Part shown: positions 5,012 through 62,087 of the stretch, piece by piece
Position numbering within the stretch: position 1 is the stretch's first letter
Layout: each line of letters starts with the position of its first letter
Assembly (NCBI RefSeq): GCF_021228795.1
Contig: NZ_CP089309.1
Location: forward strand, 2,108,001 to 2,172,000
Source: Thiocapsa bogorovii
GTDB lineage: Bacteria; Pseudomonadota; Gammaproteobacteria; Chromatiales; Chromatiaceae
Direction of reading: 5' to 3'
Length of the DNA stretch: 64,000 bases
The notes under the pieces: generated by a model
Database searches by the model: none
What the model was told of the DNA's origin: nothing
What the model saw: only the letters and a program-made list of their open reading frames with translations
Made by a program: the position numbers and the translations under genes

Positions 5012-6535
5012 ATGATTGAAGAGCCCGTTCAGGCCGCCGTCGAAACCATGCTGCCAGAGGTCGTCGCAGCCGTCGATCTCGGATCCAACAGCTTTCACAT
5101 GATCGTGGCCCGCATCGGCAACGGTCATATGCAGGTGACCGATCGCCTCAAGGAGATGGTTCGACTCGGCGAAGGCTTGCGAGACGACAAGCAGCTCGAC
5201 CCGCAGGTCGCCGAGCGCGCATTGGCGTGTCTGGAACGATTCGGCCAGAGGCTCCGCGGATTCCCTCCCGGCAGCGTGCGGGCGGTCGGAACCAATACCC
5301 TGCGTCAGCTCGCACCCGAGAGCGATTTCCTCCCCCTTGCCGAAGCCAAGCTCGGCCACCCGATCGAGGTCATCGCGGGCCGCGAAGAGGCCCGACTGAT
5401 CTACCTCGGCGTCGCCCATGATCTAGCCGCAGGGACCGAGCGGCGCCTGGTCATCGACATCGGCGGCGGAAGCACGGAGATCATCGTCGGGCTCGGTTTT
5501 TCACCACGGCTGCGCGAGAGCCTGCACATGGGCTGCGTGAGCATGTCGCGCCGTCATTTCGCCGACGGTCGCATCACGGCCCGGATCATGGAGAAAGCCG
5601 AGCTCACGGGCGCGCTCGAGGTGCGGCCCGTGCGCGAGCTGTTTCGCCGCACCGGCTGGCAGACGGCGGTCGGCAGCTCCGGGACCATCAAATCCATCGC
5701 GGCGGTCGTGGCGGCCGAGGGCTGGTGCGAGGACGGGATTTCGGCGACGGCGTTGCTGCGGCTTCGCGATGCACTGGTGGAGACGGGCCGAACCTCCGCT
5801 CTCGCGCTCAAGGGCTTAGCCGAGGAGCGTAAGCCGGTCTTCGCCGGCGGTGTCGCCGTGCTGCGTTCGGTCTTCGAGACGCTCGGGATCCAGCATATGC
5901 AGGTCTCGGAATATGCACTGCGTGAAGGCTTGATCTACGAAACGATGGGGCGCAGCCAACACGTGGATGTCCGGGAACGCACCGTCGAGACCCTCGGCCG
6001 ACATTTCCAGATCGACCAGGACCACGCTCAACGCGTCCGGGCGACGGCTTTGTCCCTCTTGCGCCGGCTCACCGCGCCTTGGGCGCTGCAGGATCCCACG
6101 CACGGACTCATGCTGGCGTGGGCGGCACGACTCCACGAAATCGGCGTGATGGTGGCCCACAGCCAACACCAAAAACACGGGGCCTATCTGCTGCGCAATG
6201 CCGACCTCGCCGGCTTTACGCGACCGGAGCAAATGCTGCTCGCCGCGTTGGTCCTCGGGCACAGGCGGAAGTTTCCCGTCCAAGAGCTCGCAGCCCTACC
6301 CCACGGGACCGGGGAGCCGGCACGCAAGCTCTGTGTCATCCTACGCCTGGCCGTTCTGCTGCATCGCGGACGCTCTTCGGAAACCAAGCCCGATCCGACG
6401 CTCACGACCGACGGCGATAACCTCGCGTTGAGCTTCCCGGACGGGTGGCTCTCCGATCATCCACTGACGCAGCTGGAGCTCGAAGAGGAGGCCGAGCGCC
6501 TGGCGTCCTCCGGGATTCGTCTGAACTTCGGCTAA
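5012..6535 (+). CDS. ppx: Exopolyphosphatase / Ppx-GppA phosphatase
   Basis: The enzyme removes terminal phosphate from polyphosphate, or pppGpp in GppA-like members. The 507-residue product has the ASKHA phosphate-binding motifs (AAVDLGSNSFHMIVARIG near residue 18 and VIDIGGGSTEIIVG near residue 148), the central TAVGSSGTIKSIAAV motif and an HD-like C-terminal half (ARLHEIGVMVAHSQHQKHG). Its length matches Ppx (about 510). The frame is open much further upstream, but that part is the antisense of recQ; the ATG at 5012 or the one at 5051 fits the family. The pst operon lies some 8 kb away but there is no direct linkage. Confidence 0.93.
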   Translation: MIEEPVQAAVETMLPEVVAAVDLGSNSFHMIVARIGNGHMQVTDRLKEMVRLGEGLRDDKQLDPQVAERALACLERFGQRLRGFPPGSVRAVGTNTLRQLAPESDFLPLAEAKLGHPIEVIAGREEARLIYLGVAHDLAAGTERRLVIDIGGGSTEIIVGLGFSPRLRESLHMGCVSMSRRHFADGRITARIMEKAELTGALEVRPVRELFRRTGWQTAVGSSGTIKSIAAVVAAEGWCEDGISATALLRLRDALVETGRTSALALKGLAEERKPVFAGGVAVLRSVFETLGIQHMQVSEYALREGLIYETMGRSQHVDVRERTVETLGRHFQIDQDHAQRVRATALSLLRRLTAPWALQDPTHGLMLAWAARLHEIGVMVAHSQHQKHGAYLLRNADLAGFTRPEQMLLAALVLGHRRKFPVQELAALPHGTGEPARKLCVILRLAVLLHRGRSSETKPDPTLTTDGDNLALSFPDGWLSDHPLTQLELEEEAERLASSGIRLNFG

Positions 6536-54817: not shown

Positions 54818-56552
54818 CCCGGATGTTTCATAAACCGACACAGCCGACACTGGCCTCGCGGATTTGCGCGGCGCTGGGCGTCACCGAGGGCGATGACCGG
54901 GACGCCGCGGGGGTTGAATGGTGGAAATACCGAGCGGCAACGGGCTTGATCAACGGGGCACGAGTAGTTTTGTCGCCGCGCAGGCGTACGATGCCCTGCC
55001 CGAGGTGGGCATAGTCGTCGTGCGCGTGCTGAAATCCCCGTGCGGGGATGTATGTGCGTCTAGGCGGGCGCCGCCCGGGGCTGCGCGTTGAAGAGCCTCT
55101 CGGTGACCTGCTGCAACAGCGTCTTGACCGGACAGCTCGAGGGCAGGTGCAGGCGCACGCGGTCTTTGTACTGCACCACGCGCACGGCGAGCTTGAACAG
55201 TTTGATGATCACGGTGGCAGGCTGGGCGTTGGCCAGTTCCGTGCCGACGAGGACCTCGGTGCGCAGCGTTTGGTGCAAGACGTAAGCGGCGCAGGAGAAG
55301 AACAAGCGCATCTGATTGGCCAAGAAGGTGCTGTCGGAAGTGCGATCGCTGGCCAGATCGTTCTTGATCATTTTGATGAAGTTCTCGTCCTGGCCGCGCG
55401 CGCAGTACAGATCGCGGTAGACGCACTCGGGACTGGGCAAGTCCAAGGAGGTGACGACGAAGCGGAGGTTGTCGCCGCGCGCCGTCACCTCGGCTTTGAG
55501 GATGGTCCGACACGCGCCGGGCCAGGAACCGGCACGGTAGTCAACCTCGTGGTAGGTGCGGGTCCGCTCGGGTACGTCGGCGTCGGCGCGCCGGGCGTTC
55601 TCGATGCGCAGCGCATGGAGCTTGCGGGCGTCGGCCAAGAACGGCTCGGCCCGTGGCGTGAGAGCCCGGTTACCCGCCAGGCCGAAGATGAAATCCGTCA
55701 ACGGATCGGCCATCGCCAAGGCCATCAACTCGGGGTTGGAGAAGTGTCCGTCGCCGCGCAGGATGATGCGTGTGCGTGGCCACGCGGCCCGCAGCCGCTT
55801 GAGCACGCGCTTGAGGATCATCGCGTTCTCGGCGCCGGTGGGGCGCTTGCCGGGACGCAGCACCGCGGTGATGAACTTCCCCGAGAGGCCCTCGAAGAGA
55901 AACAGCGGCAAGTAGCAATGGTTGCCGTAGTGATGATTGTAGAACGCGAACTCCTGCTGGCCATGGGTGGCGTCTTCGGAGTGGTCCATATCGAGCACGA
56001 TCACCTGCGGCGCCTTCGGGTAGCTGGCGATGAAGGCCTCGACGAAGGCCTGCGCCATGCGGTAGAGGTCGCGCGCGCCGACCCCATTCTCCAAACGCGA
56101 GAAGGTCGGCCCGCTGGCCAGGTCCGTCGTCGCATCCAGCGGCTTGCGCTCCAGCCCCAGCTTGAACAGCGCATCACGGCGCAGCGCATTGGCGTCGTTG
56201 CCGTCTTCGTAAGCACAGGCGATCTGGTAGACCCGTTGCGCGATCAGCTCACGCATCGGATGGGTGGTGTAGGACGGATGGCGCCAATCATCGATCGCTG
56301 CGCTCAACCGCTCGGTCAGGCCGATCTGCCGATCAACCCCGCGCAGAATCATGGGGCCAAAGTCAGACGACATGGCGCCGCCGTCGAAGTCGCCGCGGAC
56401 CGTGAAACCGGCGACCGGGGGAAAACGCAGCTGTTCCGGGGTAGACTCGGGCATGGGCGACCTCGTTTAGCTTCTTCCGAAGCGTTCTTGGCGGAACAGC
56501 CATTTTATCAATGGGTTGAACGAGAGTCGCCCTTTTTTATGAAATATTCGGG
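54818..56552 (-). mobile_element. IS1380-family insertion sequence in phoH
   Basis: 1735 bp. The ends are CCCGGATGTTTCATAAA (54818-54834) and the inverse of CCCGAATATTTCATAAA (56536-56552), 15 of 17 matching. A direct CTAG flanks both sides (54814-54817 and 56553-56556). One intact transposase gene. Because ends, target duplication and transposase are all intact, the insertion looks recent. Confidence 0.95.
55060..56454 (-). CDS. IS1380-family transposase
   Basis: An intact 464-residue DDE transposase. Family features include the N-terminal GGAMSSDFGPMILRGVDRQIGL, the RVYQIACAYEDGNDANALRRD region, and catalytic acids in IVLDMDHSED, ILRGDGHFSNPEL and the C-terminal YCARGQDENFIKMIKNDLASDRT (Glu). 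The ATG at 56452-56454 is about 100 bp inside the right end. It has the same orientation as the interrupted gene. Confidence 0.93.
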   Translation of the reverse strand: MPESTPEQLRFPPVAGFTVRGDFDGGAMSSDFGPMILRGVDRQIGLTERLSAAIDDWRHPSYTTHPMRELIAQRVYQIACAYEDGNDANALRRDALFKLGLERKPLDATTDLASGPTFSRLENGVGARDLYRMAQAFVEAFIASYPKAPQVIVLDMDHSEDATHGQQEFAFYNHHYGNHCYLPLFLFEGLSGKFITAVLRPGKRPTGAENAMILKRVLKRLRAAWPRTRIILRGDGHFSNPELMALAMADPLTDFIFGLAGNRALTPRAEPFLADARKLHALRIENARRADADVPERTRTYHEVDYRAGSWPGACRTILKAEVTARGDNLRFVVTSLDLPSPECVYRDLYCARGQDENFIKMIKNDLASDRTSDSTFLANQMRLFFSCAAYVLHQTLRTEVLVGTELANAQPATVIIKLFKLAVRVVQYKDRVRLHLPSSCPVKTLLQQVTERLFNAQPRAAPA

Positions 56553-57297
56553 CTAGGATGATAAAGGAGTCGTTGAGCGTTCGACCGCGCATGTAGGCCA
56601 GCGGGGCGACCTCGATGACGTTGCGCTCGAGGAGCTTGGTGACCTTCTCGAAGCCAAGCATCTCGAAGAGCGCATCGTAGAGCGGACGCAGATAGGGATC
56701 GATCTTCTGGGCCAGATCGCCGGGCAGGAATCCCAAGCGCTCGCCGGCCTCGACCGCCGGACGCACCAGCAAGAGTCGGCGCACGCGGTCGGAATCGAGT
56801 GCCTCGACCGCACAGGCCACCGCGAGATAGGTCTTGCCGGTGCCGGCCGGGCCGACGCCGAAGTTGATGTCGTGCTTCAGCATGGCGTGGAGATAGCTCT
56901 GCTGATTCGGTCCGCGTGCTCGGATCAGACCGCGCTTGGTCTTGATGACGACATCCGGCAGACGATCCTCGGCCGATTCCAGAAGCGCGTCGGCCCCGGA
57001 CTCTTGAAGCCAGAGATGAATCGTCTCGGGCGTGAGCACCTCGGCGGCGGTCTCGGCATAGAGATCCTGCAGAAGCTGCTCCCCGAGGCGCACACCTTCG
57101 GGATCGCCGATCAGACGGAAATTGACACCGCGATTGCTGATCTCGATACCGAGTCGGCGCTCCAACTGGCGCAGATGCTGATCGAGCTGGCCGCAAAGGT
57201 TGGCGAGCCGAACGTTGTCGGCGGGCTCGAGCTCCAGATCCAGGGTTTGCGGTTGGATCGACACGCCGGCCGCCGCGCTCAAACGCCGACCCCGCAC
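56553..57297 (-). pseudogene. phoH: PhoH-like ATPase, 5' fragment
   Basis: The N-terminal 248 residues of PhoH/YbeZ with the KH-like region (IEISNRGVNFRLIGDP), Walker A (GVGPAGTGKTYLAVACAVEAL) and APLAYMRGRTLNDSFIIL, where the inserted element interrupts just before the Walker B LDEAQN. The frame then runs into the element and stops at 56467 after about 28 foreign residues. Start is uncertain: GTG at 57297 overlaps the miaB end, and TTG at 57282 overlaps its stop codon. Confidence 0.92.
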
Positions 57298-58896: not shown

Positions 58897-58943
58897 ACAC
58901 AGCATCTAGTTGGCGCTATAGTCCGCACCACAAGATATAGTGG
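58897..58943 (+). promoter_or_regulatory. Tandem NrdR boxes upstream of nrdD
   Basis: ACACAGCATCTAGTTG (58897-58912) and CCACAAGATATAGTGG (58928-58943) resemble the NrdR consensus acaCwAtATaTwGtgt; the second is strongly palindromic. Their starts are 31 bp apart, three helical turns, which is the usual spacing for paired NrdR boxes. Confidence 0.7.
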
Positions 58944-58964: not shown

Positions 58965-61004
58965 ATGGGACAGCTCCGAAACAACCTGTCGACCCTGCCC
59001 GTACGGGTCCGCAAGCGCGACGGTGTCGAGGTGCGCTTCGATGCCGCCAAGATCGAGTCCGCGATTCGTCGCGCCGGACAGGCGAGCGGCGAGTTCGGTG
59101 CGCCGGAGGCGAGTCTATTGACCGCTCAGGTGGTCAAGGTGCTGGCCCATCGCTACGGAGCAGAGCGTTTGCCCGACATCGAGGGTATCCAGGATGTCGT
59201 CGAGCAGACCCTCATCAGCGCCAACCACTTCGAGACGGCCCGCAGCTACATCGTCTATCGCGAGCAGCACAAGAAGCTGCGCGACGAGCAGCGCACCTTG
59301 GTCGACGTCGGCGGCTCCATCAACGAGTATCTCGACCGCTCGGACTGGCGCGTCGCGGCCAATGCCAATCAGGGCTACTCGCTCGGCGGCTTGATCCTCA
59401 ACACCTCGGGCAAGATGATCGCCAATTACTGGCTGAGCCATGTCTATCCGCCCGAGATCGGCCAGGCCCATCGAGACGGCGACATCCATATCCACGATCT
59501 CGACATGCTCTCCGGCTACTGCGCGGGCTGGTCGCTGCGTACCCTGCTCAACGAGGGGCTGAACGGGGTGCCTGGCAAGGTCGAGGCCGGTCCGCCCAAG
59601 CACATGTCCTCCGCAATCGGGCAGATCGTGAATTTCCTGGGCACACTTCAGAACGAGTGGGCCGGCGCACAGGCGTTCTCGAGCTTCGATACCTATATGG
59701 CAGCCTTCGTGCGCAGCGACGGGCTGGATTATCCGCACGTCAAGCAGGCCATCCAAGAACTCATCTACAACCTGAACGTGCCCTCGCGCTGGGGCTGCCA
59801 GACTCCCTTCACGAATCTGACCTTCGACTGGGTCTGCCCCGAGGATCTGCGCGAGCAGGTGCCGGTGATCGCTGGCGTGGAGCAGCCCTACACCTACGGT
59901 GATCTTCAGGCCGAGATGGACCTGATCAATCGGGCCTATATCGAGGTGATGACCGAGGGCGACGCCAAGGGCCGGATCTTCACCTTCCCGATCCCCACCT
60001 ATAACATCACCCCGGATTTCCCGTGGGACAGCGAGAACGCAGAGCACCTGTTCGAGATGACGGCGAAGTACGGTCTTCCCTACTTCCAGAATTTTCTCAA
60101 CTCGGAGCTTTCGCCGAACATGGTGCGCTCCATGTGCTGCCGGTTGCAGCTGGATCTGCGCGAGCTGCTCAAGCGCGGCAACGGGCTGTTCGGCTCGGCC
60201 GAGCAGACCGGCTCGCTCGGTGTCGTGACCATCAACTGTGCGCGGCTCGGATACACCCATCGAGGCGACGAGGCCGGGCTTCTGGCACGGCTCGACACAC
60301 TCCTGAACCTCGCGCGCAACAGTCTCGAGATCAAACGCAAGGTCATCCAGCGGCACATGGATGCCGGACTCTTCCCCTATACCAAGCGGTATCTGGGCAC
60401 GCTGCGCAACCATTTCTCGACCATCGGCGTGAACGGGATCAACGAGTTGATCCGCAACTTCACCAACGATGCCGAGGACATCACGACGGATCGGGGCCAC
60501 GCCATGGCCTGCCGGATCCTGGATCACGTCCGCGCTCGGATGGTCGAGTTTCAGGAATCAACCGGCAGTATGTACAACCTGGAAGCCACACCCGCGGAGG
60601 GCACGACCTACCGCTTCGCCCGCGAAGACAAGAAGCGCTTTCCGGACATCCTACAGGCCGGCACGGCCGAGACGCCCTACTATACCAACAGCTCTCAGCT
60701 GCCGGTGGGCTACACGGACGACCCCTTCGAGGCGCTGTCCATGCAGGAGGCGCTGCAAACCAAATATACGGGCGGCACCGTGCTGCACCTGTATATGAAC
60801 GAGCAGATCTCGACGACCGACGCCTGCAAGCGACTGGTCCGTCGGGCACTGGAAAACTTTCGTCAGCCCTACATCACGGTCACGCCTGTGTTCTCGATCT
60901 GCCCCAAACACGGTTACATCGCGGGCGAGCACGAATTCTGCCCGGTCTGCGACCGCGAACTCATCGCGCGCAAGACTGCGGCGCTTGAAGAGGCGGAGGC
61001 ATAG
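58965..61004 (+). CDS. nrdD: Anaerobic (class III) ribonucleoside-triphosphate reductase, catalytic subunit lacking glycyl-radical domain
   Basis: Reduces ribonucleotides to deoxyribonucleotides without oxygen. The 679-residue product has an N-terminal ATP cone (PVRVRKRDGVEVRFDAAKIESAI), the ten-stranded barrel with NVPSRWGCQTPFTNLTFD and MCCRLQLDLREL (candidate active-site Cys), and a C-terminal zinc-type knuckle (CPKHGYIAGEHEFCPVCD). It ends 16 residues after the knuckle; the glycyl-radical segment (RVxGYxRP), normally following at once, is absent and is encoded by the next small gene. Upstream are FNR-like and NrdR-like sites. An activase gene follows. Confidence 0.95.
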   Translation: MGQLRNNLSTLPVRVRKRDGVEVRFDAAKIESAIRRAGQASGEFGAPEASLLTAQVVKVLAHRYGAERLPDIEGIQDVVEQTLISANHFETARSYIVYREQHKKLRDEQRTLVDVGGSINEYLDRSDWRVAANANQGYSLGGLILNTSGKMIANYWLSHVYPPEIGQAHRDGDIHIHDLDMLSGYCAGWSLRTLLNEGLNGVPGKVEAGPPKHMSSAIGQIVNFLGTLQNEWAGAQAFSSFDTYMAAFVRSDGLDYPHVKQAIQELIYNLNVPSRWGCQTPFTNLTFDWVCPEDLREQVPVIAGVEQPYTYGDLQAEMDLINRAYIEVMTEGDAKGRIFTFPIPTYNITPDFPWDSENAEHLFEMTAKYGLPYFQNFLNSELSPNMVRSMCCRLQLDLRELLKRGNGLFGSAEQTGSLGVVTINCARLGYTHRGDEAGLLARLDTLLNLARNSLEIKRKVIQRHMDAGLFPYTKRYLGTLRNHFSTIGVNGINELIRNFTNDAEDITTDRGHAMACRILDHVRARMVEFQESTGSMYNLEATPAEGTTYRFAREDKKRFPDILQAGTAETPYYTNSSQLPVGYTDDPFEALSMQEALQTKYTGGTVLHLYMNEQISTTDACKRLVRRALENFRQPYITVTPVFSICPKHGYIAGEHEFCPVCDRELIARKTAALEEAEA

Positions 61005-61106
61005 GTCGATCACGGGCTCGCCGAACGCACGGCCGCTCGACAGGACAACGACCGCCGCACACGCCATCGACGCACAATCATCCGAAACGACATCAGGAGC
61101 GAAACC

Positions 61107-61295
61107 ATGACCCACCAAACCATCGAGCTGAAGACCGAAGAACGCACCCGTTGCGAGGTCTGGACCCGCGTGATGGGCTATCACCGCCCGGTTTCGGCCT
61201 TCAATGCCGGCAAACGCGCCGAGCACGCCGAACGCTGCTACTTCACCGAGACACCCACCGGATCCGCAAATCGCGAAGAGCGCCGCGCCGCCTAG
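61107..61295 (+). CDS. Stand-alone glycyl-radical domain of class III RNR
   Basis: A 62-residue protein whose centre, RCEVWTRVMGYHRPVSAFN then AGKRAEHAERCYF, matches the C-terminal glycyl-radical segment of NrdD (E-V-x-x-R-V-x-G-Y-x-R-P-V). Gly24 would carry the radical. It has its own ATG with a strong ribosome site (AGGAGCGAAACC), 102 bp after the nrdD stop and in a separate reading unit, so it is not a simple frameshift. It would dock onto NrdD as a replaceable radical subunit, like YfiD does for pyruvate formate-lyase. Its activase is the next gene, 39 bp on. Confidence 0.85.
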   Translation: MTHQTIELKTEERTRCEVWTRVMGYHRPVSAFNAGKRAEHAERCYFTETPTGSANREERRAA

Positions 61296-61334
61296 ATCTT
61301 TGAGCCGAATCGAGCCGATCGAAGCGCAACGCCC

Positions 61335-62087
61335 ATGTCACGACAAACGCCCTGCCCGAGCGACGTCGATGGGCCGACCGCTGCGGACTCGGCGGACGCA
61401 GAGCGCTTGCGGATCGGCGGCTTCGTCCCACTGACAACGATCGACTACCCGGGCGAGCTCGCCGCAGTCGTCTTCCTTCAAGGCTGTGCCTGGCGCTGTC
61501 GCTACTGCCAGAACGGCGCCTTGATCGACCCGGGCGCGACCCCGGTCATCGCCTGGCCGACGATCCGCGAGATCCTCAAGCGTCGCCGCGGTCTTCTCGA
61601 TGCAGCGGTCTTCAGCGGCGGCGAGCCGACCCTCCAGTCCGCACTAGCCGCGGCCATGACCGAGGTCCGGGAGCTCGGATTCAAGGTCGGCCTGCACACC
61701 GCGGGGCCCGCGCCGAAACGTTTGGAACGGCTCTTACCGCTCCTGGATTGGGTGGCCCTCGACATCAAGGCGCTGCCTGAGGACTATCCCGCAATCACGG
61801 GTATCCCCCGATCCGGCGAGGCGGCGTGGGAGAGTCTATCGCTGATCCAGGCGTCCGGTGTTCCGCTGGAGGTCCGCACCACGACAATGCCGCAATGGAC
61901 GGCACGCGATCTCGCGACGCTCGCAGCCCTCCTCGCGCAAAAGGGCGTGCGGCGATACGCGGTTCAGGCCTGCGAGACCCGAAACGCCTTGGATCCTCTT
62001 CTCACTCAGCCCGCAATTCCGCTCGCACAGCTCGCCGCCGCCATCGATCCGGCATCCTTCGAGGGATTCCTCCTGCGTGGCCACTGA
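61335..62087 (+). CDS. nrdG: Anaerobic RNR-activating protein (radical SAM), NrdG2 type
   Basis: Generates the glycyl radical. The 250-residue product has the radical SAM motif CAWRCRYCQNG (CxxxCxxC), GGEPTLQSAL (SAM-binding GGE) and LDWVALDIKAL, with an N-terminal IGGFVPLTTIDYPGELAAVVFLQG typical of this activase group. It is longer than E. coli NrdG (154), in line with the NrdG2 group that pairs with divergent NrdD proteins. Third gene of the RNR locus; convergent with the GGDEF/EAL gene. Confidence 0.92.
   Translation: MSRQTPCPSDVDGPTAADSADAERLRIGGFVPLTTIDYPGELAAVVFLQGCAWRCRYCQNGALIDPGATPVIAWPTIREILKRRRGLLDAAVFSGGEPTLQSALAAAMTEVRELGFKVGLHTAGPAPKRLERLLPLLDWVALDIKALPEDYPAITGIPRSGEAAWESLSLIQASGVPLEVRTTTMPQWTARDLATLAALLAQKGVRRYAVQACETRNALDPLLTQPAIPLAQLAAAIDPASFEGFLLRGH

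Follow-up and report, generated by a model that had tools for sequence, protein, structure and literature searches.

Where does a class III (anaerobic) ribonucleotide reductase keep its glycyl radical when the gene for its large catalytic subunit, nrdD, ends before the radical motif? The question is raised by a locus in a 64-kb stretch of the Thiocapsa bogorovii genome (the whole stretch is called the window below), where nrdD, a short gene and the activase gene nrdG follow one another head to tail. The likely answer is a two-subunit reductase with an exchangeable small radical subunit, stand-alone copies of which would serve the NrdD of their hosts. The 62-residue product of the short gene is, with high probability, first of all an obligate glycyl-radical subunit acting in trans, because the large NrdD itself lacks a radical domain; on whether the small protein truly functions in exchange or repair, our analysis leans slightly in favor.

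The best NCBIfam match of the large protein was PRK08270 (1132.8 bits), followed by the class III model TIGR02487, and the B12-dependent NCBIfam models touched it solely at the N-terminal ATP-cone stretch. The Pfam family NRDD (PF13597) covered it from position 2 to 529 of the 562-position model (5.9e-174). The gene stops at a TAG codon, the protein ends in ...CPKHGYIAGEHEFCPVCDRELIARKTAALEEAEA, and RVxGY is absent from the 679-residue translation. The small protein matched the same model from position 532 to its end (2.8e-8), which was its sole Pfam match at E up to 0.1; chance would not produce matches so complementary. The small protein contains ...EERTRCEVWTRVMGYHRPVSAFNAGK..., and with it the pattern E17-V18-x-x-R21-V22-x-G24-Y25-x-R27-P28-V29. 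The initial annotation of this DNA had placed the end of nrdD just after the zinc knuckle, without RVxGY, and the whole glycine pattern on the next gene, with its own ribosome-binding site and followed by the activase; all these elements were found in that order (Table 1). The knuckle presumably binds a metal, as judged from its residues, and the finger loop is of one of the two motif classes (MGCR or MCCR) given in section 2.5 of PMC9669993.

The initial annotation had also considered that a second, full-length nrdD might be used instead. A profile search found no other NRDD match in the source genome, a single contig of 5.65 Mb that is 99.99% complete, and the small-protein profile gave just two other matches in it, both insignificant (E of 1.2 and 1.8). 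The genome likewise holds no match to PF01228, the glycyl-radical domain of the pyruvate formate-lyase (PFL) type, which we take to be the radical-domain family of GrcA/YfiD. For this reason, we rejected the idea that the small protein serves the cell as a spare part for an enzyme of the PFL type.

Relatives, in which the initial annotation had proposed to look for it, carry the same split pair. Of 194 genomes of the family that were searched, 133 had an NRDD match, and 130 of those also gave a small-protein match, in two cases as part of a one-piece gene. One-piece NrdD (the whole model in a single open frame) exists in the family, but among the matches listed only in G024 and G144. The three genomes with NRDD but no small-protein match are G018 (L307) and G040 (L027), whose sequences end shortly after nrdD, and G037, where the NRDD match is just a weak fragment; absence of the small gene from relatives, named earlier as a counter-argument, was not what we found, as the gene is present in them. 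Thirty family loci (L003–L032) were read in detail, of which 27 are split pairs, two are one-piece and one, L027, is without the small gene since its contig ends. A scan of named genomes with the small protein returned at least 582 stretches, and nrdD lay 5′ of the small gene in 76 of the best 80 (the other four are L156, L158, L159 and L203), with nrdG no more than 1 kb downstream in 73 of these 76 split loci. The named loci include Thiocapsa, Allochromatium, Marichromatium, Stutzerimonas, Pseudomonas indica, Halomonas, Thiobacillus, Cupriavidus, Ectothiorhodospira and Omnitrophota; the pair also occurs in Paracoccus, and P. indica, P. cedrina and Stutzerimonas stutzeri are all split. Plasmids of Cupriavidus necator H16 (pHG1), Sulfuricurvum, Bradyrhizobium, Shinella and Azospira carry it too, with the large gene labeled 'ribonucleoside triphosphate reductase' and the short one 'nrdD'. 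Because the small protein was the query, the sets from named genomes and from plasmids favor split forms, whereas the NRDD searches of the family and the phylum do not; in the phylum sample (398 genomes), 57 genomes had NRDD, of which 13 were split (source genome included), 43 were one-piece and one, G529, gave a weak match below the cut-off. We also observed a large in-frame insertion at NRDD model position ~156–158 in the NrdD genes of many family members (e.g. G073, G123 and G132), whose open frames reach ~1000 codons or more; the insertion is probably an intein.

Could recent decay, or an error of sequencing or assembly, have put a stop codon into nrdD and left its tail behind as a leftover? 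In the window, the two genes do share one frame, with a single TAG and 102 bases between them. However, the arrangement recurs in the named and family loci counted above, that is, in independently sequenced genomes, and the small gene has its own start codon and ribosome-binding site and lies in a different frame from nrdD in 55 of the 76 split loci. The pooled ratio of nonsynonymous to synonymous substitution rates (dN/dS), from pairs with a proportion of synonymous differences (pS) < 0.6, was 0.20 for the split set, 0.24 for the viral copies and 0.30 for the other stand-alone copies; the small gene is under purifying selection. Within a 33-residue core, the radical glycine is kept in 155/155 split-set, 80/80 viral and 18/18 other stand-alone sequences. 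The 155, with 121 distinct cores, contain some stand-alone loci as well as genomes fetched more than once, and five loci that did not fit the core pattern (L038, L059, L153, L201 and L220) were left out of both the glycine and the dN/dS sets. The first four retain MGY or MGF; L220 (G124; 6078–6239, + strand) is a degenerate small gene in which the glycine is replaced by aspartate (VMDY) and a stop lies within the match, and its genome has other small-gene copies too. The chance of decay or error is, in our estimate, negligible, and the earlier claim of an evolved split is well supported by a pair conserved in and far beyond the family, by purifying selection and by the unchanged glycine.

The shared frame in the window suggests another way back to an ordinary one-piece NrdD, in which stop-codon read-through, ribosome hopping or protein ligation joins the two products. 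The relatives speak against it. The 21 of 76 split loci that share the frame do not exceed the one third expected by chance, and the nrdD stops are mixed (TGA in 46, TAA in 21 and TAG in 9); on these frames and stop codons, read-through or recoding was rejected. Moreover, in G505 (L224, G505:C4:21000-36000) the small gene and nrdG are adjacent while nrdD is ~8.4 kb away, and in L158 and L159 the small gene accompanies nrdG with nrdD outside the fetched stretch, meaning that the small gene can remain beside the activase gene even where nrdD lies apart. Stand-alone copies in viral stretches and on plasmids have no adjoining nrdD to be joined to. Joining is therefore very improbable, and a two-subunit assembly, which gene anatomy and conservation strongly support, would be the form in which the enzyme works.

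The fit of the small protein to the NrdD fold was modeled with AlphaFold2 on an artificial chain of 776 residues, in which the two frames of the window were fused with the TAG read as Gln and 43 relatives were supplied. The model had a mean predicted local distance difference test score (pLDDT) of 85.5 and a predicted template modeling score (pTM) of 0.78, and it superseded an earlier one with a mean pLDDT of 75.1. Residues 721–760, which hold the motif of the small protein, scored 84–94 per ten-residue block, and the link residues 699–709 and 712–714 scored below 50. The glycine is chain residue 738 and lies between the strands 731–736 and 739–742. The top 36 PDB matches of the fused model were all class III reductases. 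When solved structures were searched, the 62 residues on their own gave no match, whereas a profile built from the full alignment did, and in profile alignment RVMGY fell on RIVGY of the Thermotoga maritima NrdD. The MAFFT alignment A2 was dropped, as it matched the small proteins to the wrong region of NrdD, and alignments A3 and A5 were used instead.

The small gene also travels alone. It occurs without an adjoining nrdD on pALVIN01 of Allochromatium vinosum (L034) and on pAt1 of A. tepidum, and 13 family genomes have more than one small-protein match, with up to five in G147; the multiple matches in G136 may be pieces of one gene. The extra copies in single genomes and on these two plasmids are L205–L223, L034 and L041. 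Of 21 extra genomic matches, 19 were fetched, with the pAt1 copy included and the G136 copy left out, and none of the 19 stretches held NrdD or NrdG near the copy. In IMG/VR, 182 stretches encode the small protein, and the 80 that were kept (L225–L304) hold neither NrdD nor NrdG. The whole viral records searched for 36 of these 80 each contain one NRDD match, confined to model positions 513–562, and no NrdG2 match (0/36). The stand-alone proteins are mostly ~45–100 residues long. An additional cysteine-rich N-terminal part, which may form a separate zinc knuckle in these proteins, was seen in viral L227, L232, L238, L241 and L278, among others.

The viral setting of these copies was examined with PHROGs, using 18 neighbor proteins from 13 viral loci. 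At 8 of the 13, virion, tail, terminase or replication proteins lie beside the copy: a terminase in L226, a tape measure protein in L246, tail fibers in L251 and L295, an internal virion protein in L268, a virion protein in L285, a tail assembly protein in L247, and a DNA polymerase with a clamp loader in L298. The match was to an HNH endonuclease at L291 and to a metallo-phosphoesterase at L237, and three of the 18 proteins, at L229, L235 and L275, had no PHROGs match. Two viral loci encode a small protein identical to one in a family genome (L232 and L215, L268 and L211), and both genomes concerned, G027 and G140, possess a split NrdD. The family phrog_4132, of 'unknown function', matched the small protein of the window (2.8e-8) and 7/7 viral copies tested; the matches lie at positions ~108–166 of its 179-position profile. 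Among GenBank phages (INPHARED), no stand-alone copy was found: the single weak match of the first search carried a reductase annotation, and of three weak matches to a phage-derived query, two were reductases by annotation and the third was unannotated. The viral NrdD genes proper (29 loci) comprise 20 one-piece genes, six with a separate small gene and three without a visible one. Often (L316–L325, L327–L330, L332, L333 and L336), the chain of the one-piece viral NrdD is extended by a tail with CPNCK-type motifs, which we assume to be glutaredoxin-like.

What would such copies do? As none of the 36 whole viral records has a catalytic part of NrdD or NrdG2, the protein would find its partners in the host, and it might act as a decoy or inhibitor of the host class III reductase. 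A decoy need not retain the glycine, however, which is present in every viral copy, and phages usually require more deoxynucleotides, not fewer. We consider a decoy role improbable. The occurrence of stand-alone copies in plasmids, genomes and phage contigs lends support to the proposal of the initial annotation that a cleaved radical could be replaced cheaply, by analogy with YfiD and PFL, and the copies of plasmids and phages would be spare or extra radical subunits for the NrdD of the host.

In the mechanism that we propose for the two-subunit enzyme, the large NrdD holds the zinc knuckle, the ATP-cone and the catalytic barrel, including the barrel's cysteines, and the loop bearing the radical glycine (Gly24) belongs to the 62-residue protein together with the C-terminal tail. 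This protein would dock non-covalently at the site taken by the C-terminal domain in one-piece NrdD. Once docked, its Gly24 would be activated to the glycyl radical by NrdG, and the radical would be passed from Gly24 to a finger-loop cysteine. Oxygen would cleave the small protein alone; the cleaved copy would leave, a fresh one would enter, and the large subunit would be saved. A different emphasis is that the amount or turnover of the small subunit sets the activity of the reductase and that the exchange of oxygen-damaged copies is incidental. The pairing of the small gene with nrdG where nrdD is elsewhere (G505, L158 and L159), the closeness of nrdG in nearly all split loci and an NrdR-like box upstream of nrdD are consistent with such control. 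That box, CCACAAGATATAGTGG, is the single match with at most three mismatches to ACACWATATATWGTGT, which we used as the presumed NrdR consensus, in the 64 kb; 0.03 would be expected by chance, and 3 of 100 shuffles had one. The additional stand-alone and phage copies, in turn, suit supply or repair at least equally well. Control without repair is a possible, though on balance doubtful, account of the small protein.

Table 1. Features of the nrdD–small gene–nrdG locus (positions in the window; A5, alignment of 44 rows).
Feature	Position	Strand	Basis
NrdR-like box CCACAAGATATAGTGG, 5′ of nrdD	58928-58943	+	match to ACACWATATATWGTGT, 3 mismatches
nrdD, class III ribonucleotide reductase large catalytic subunit, 679 residues	58965-61004	+	Pfam NRDD, PRK08270
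ATP-cone, NrdD residues 14-104	59004-59276	+	Pfam PF03477, 2e-21
Finger-loop motif MCCR (M390-R393), double-cysteine type	60132-60143	+	C391 and C392 invariant in A5
Zinc knuckle C646-x2-H649 ... C659-x2-C662	60900-60950	+	four residues invariant in A5
AGGAG ribosome-binding site of the small gene, 7 bases 5′ of ATG	61095-61099	+	sequence
Small gene, 62-residue glycyl-radical subunit (predicted), ATG start	61107-61295	+	NRDD tail, phrog_4132, conservation
Gly24 codon, expected radical glycine (RVMGY)	61176-61178	+	conservation; aligns to T. maritima RIVGY column
nrdG, radical S-adenosylmethionine activase, 250 residues	61335-62087	+	NCBIfam TIGR02495 NrdG2, 1.9e-59

The history of the split was followed in a tree of 108 NrdD cores whose radical segment was left out, built by a quick method after near-identical rows had been removed (118 to 94), six one-piece rows of other families omitted and 19 rows added. 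One clade (support 98) holds 87 rows labeled split and six one-piece rows; the 15 rows outside it are all one-piece. L027, L307 and L311 were labeled split although their sequences end before any small gene. The label changes six times on the tree, and well supported branches require at least five of the changes. These sequences would most simply be read as one old split with about five re-fusions (Acidiphilium/Acidithiobacillus, Actinomyces, G571, G024 and G144); given this sampling, several independent splits are possible. The G144 gene (L004) looks like a re-fusion, with a long linker followed by the small protein's own head, ALKDEERTRCEVWTRV.

Several points weigh against a two-subunit enzyme served by mobile copies. 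One-piece NrdD prevails in the phylum sample (43 of the 57 NRDD-matching genomes), and the clade itself includes one-piece forms, as does the family (G024 and G144), meaning that the split is not always retained. The fused chain, being artificial, indicates the fit of the small protein and cannot prove non-covalent docking. The viral records are fragments, and a distant nrdD may possibly lie elsewhere in the phage. With no copy in INPHARED, the evidence for phages comes from metagenomic contigs and prophages.

Two observations concern other genes. The class I/II reductase large-subunit family was matched at two further places in the source genome. A large subunit of this type at G000:C1:4494725-4497469 matches in two pieces ~1.1 kb apart in one 1383-codon open frame and thus also seems to contain an insertion, probably an intein. 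In the window, a PhoH-like gene (56467–57297, − strand) is apparently truncated by a transposase gene (55060–56454, − strand), both names being our presumptive reading of the translations.

One-piece NrdD proteins, such as those of T4, Thermotoga maritima, Prevotella copri and Streptococcus thermophilus, share with the split form the family, the fold, the zinc knuckle, the glycine motif and NrdG, and some of them also have the ATP-cone. The difference is that zinc knuckle and glycine loop form one C-terminal domain in the one-piece enzyme, whereas in the split form NrdD terminates after the knuckle and the loop is a protein by itself. GrcA/YfiD and T4 Y06I are, like the small protein, small stand-alone glycyl-radical proteins that phages carry too, and they substitute the oxygen-cleaved segment of PFL (PMC8683613). 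The parallel is one of mechanism and not of family, as the enzymes differ and the radical domain is the NRDD tail in one case and PF01228 in the other. Moreover, YfiD is an optional spare for a full-length partner, whereas in the split system the sole genomic NrdD has no radical domain. NrdJa/NrdJb of Pseudomonas aeruginosa is also a ribonucleotide reductase spread over two genes, but of class II and dependent on adenosylcobalamin (PMC4520616); the NrdD of the window is of class III, with no match to a class II catalytic subunit. Split nrdD genes have been reported in phages, with introns, inteins or unknown causes behind them (PMC3653736).

The split has been in view on pHG1, the megaplasmid of C. 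necator H16, whose nrdDG genes were reportedly described by Siedow in 1999. There, the small gene (L033, 3444–3644) lies between nrdD and nrdG and is annotated nrdD in the PLSDB gene table. NrdDG is reported to be essential for complete denitrification in this strain (PMC2864759); the accessible text of that paper makes no mention of a small gene between the two, and in CH34 it gives nrdD as Rmet_5137 and nrdG as Rmet_5139, leaving one gene number between. We found no description of a cellular NrdD with its radical domain on a separate gene, or of a lone NrdD radical domain borne by phages, in the open PMC literature, most subscription papers being beyond reach and a prior description possible. 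The accessible parts of PMC9531940, PMC9669993, PMC11226230, PMC4390871, PMC2864759, PMC8683613, PMC11528403, PMC6805499, PMC4860495, PMC3653736, PMC4520616 and PMC12288474 contained none either. This suggests that the carriage of the NrdD radical subunit alone by phages and plasmids is new, no report of it having been found in the open literature.

If this reading is true, a central enzyme of DNA-precursor synthesis holds its radical on an exchangeable small protein, and probably does so across hundreds of species, given the number of stretches found and the prevalence of split pairs among the best of them. It would put in question the uniqueness of NrdJab, described as a unique split ribonucleotide reductase of a free-living organism (PMC4520616). 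Only two spare parts for PFL have been validated, and spare parts for other glycyl-radical enzymes were considered possible (PMC8683613); the small proteins are direct candidates for these. The phage family phrog_4132 would gain a likely role, and an 'nrdD' of a split species expressed without the small gene should give an inactive enzyme. In its broadest form, which we hold to be evenly poised between right and wrong, the class III reductase of a broad bacterial clade would use a diffusible, replaceable protein radical cofactor, and phages, prophages and plasmids would trade in it by carrying the small protein alone, which would fit into the large subunit of the host and be charged by the host NrdG, so that the supply of deoxynucleotides would continue after oxygen damage or during phage replication.

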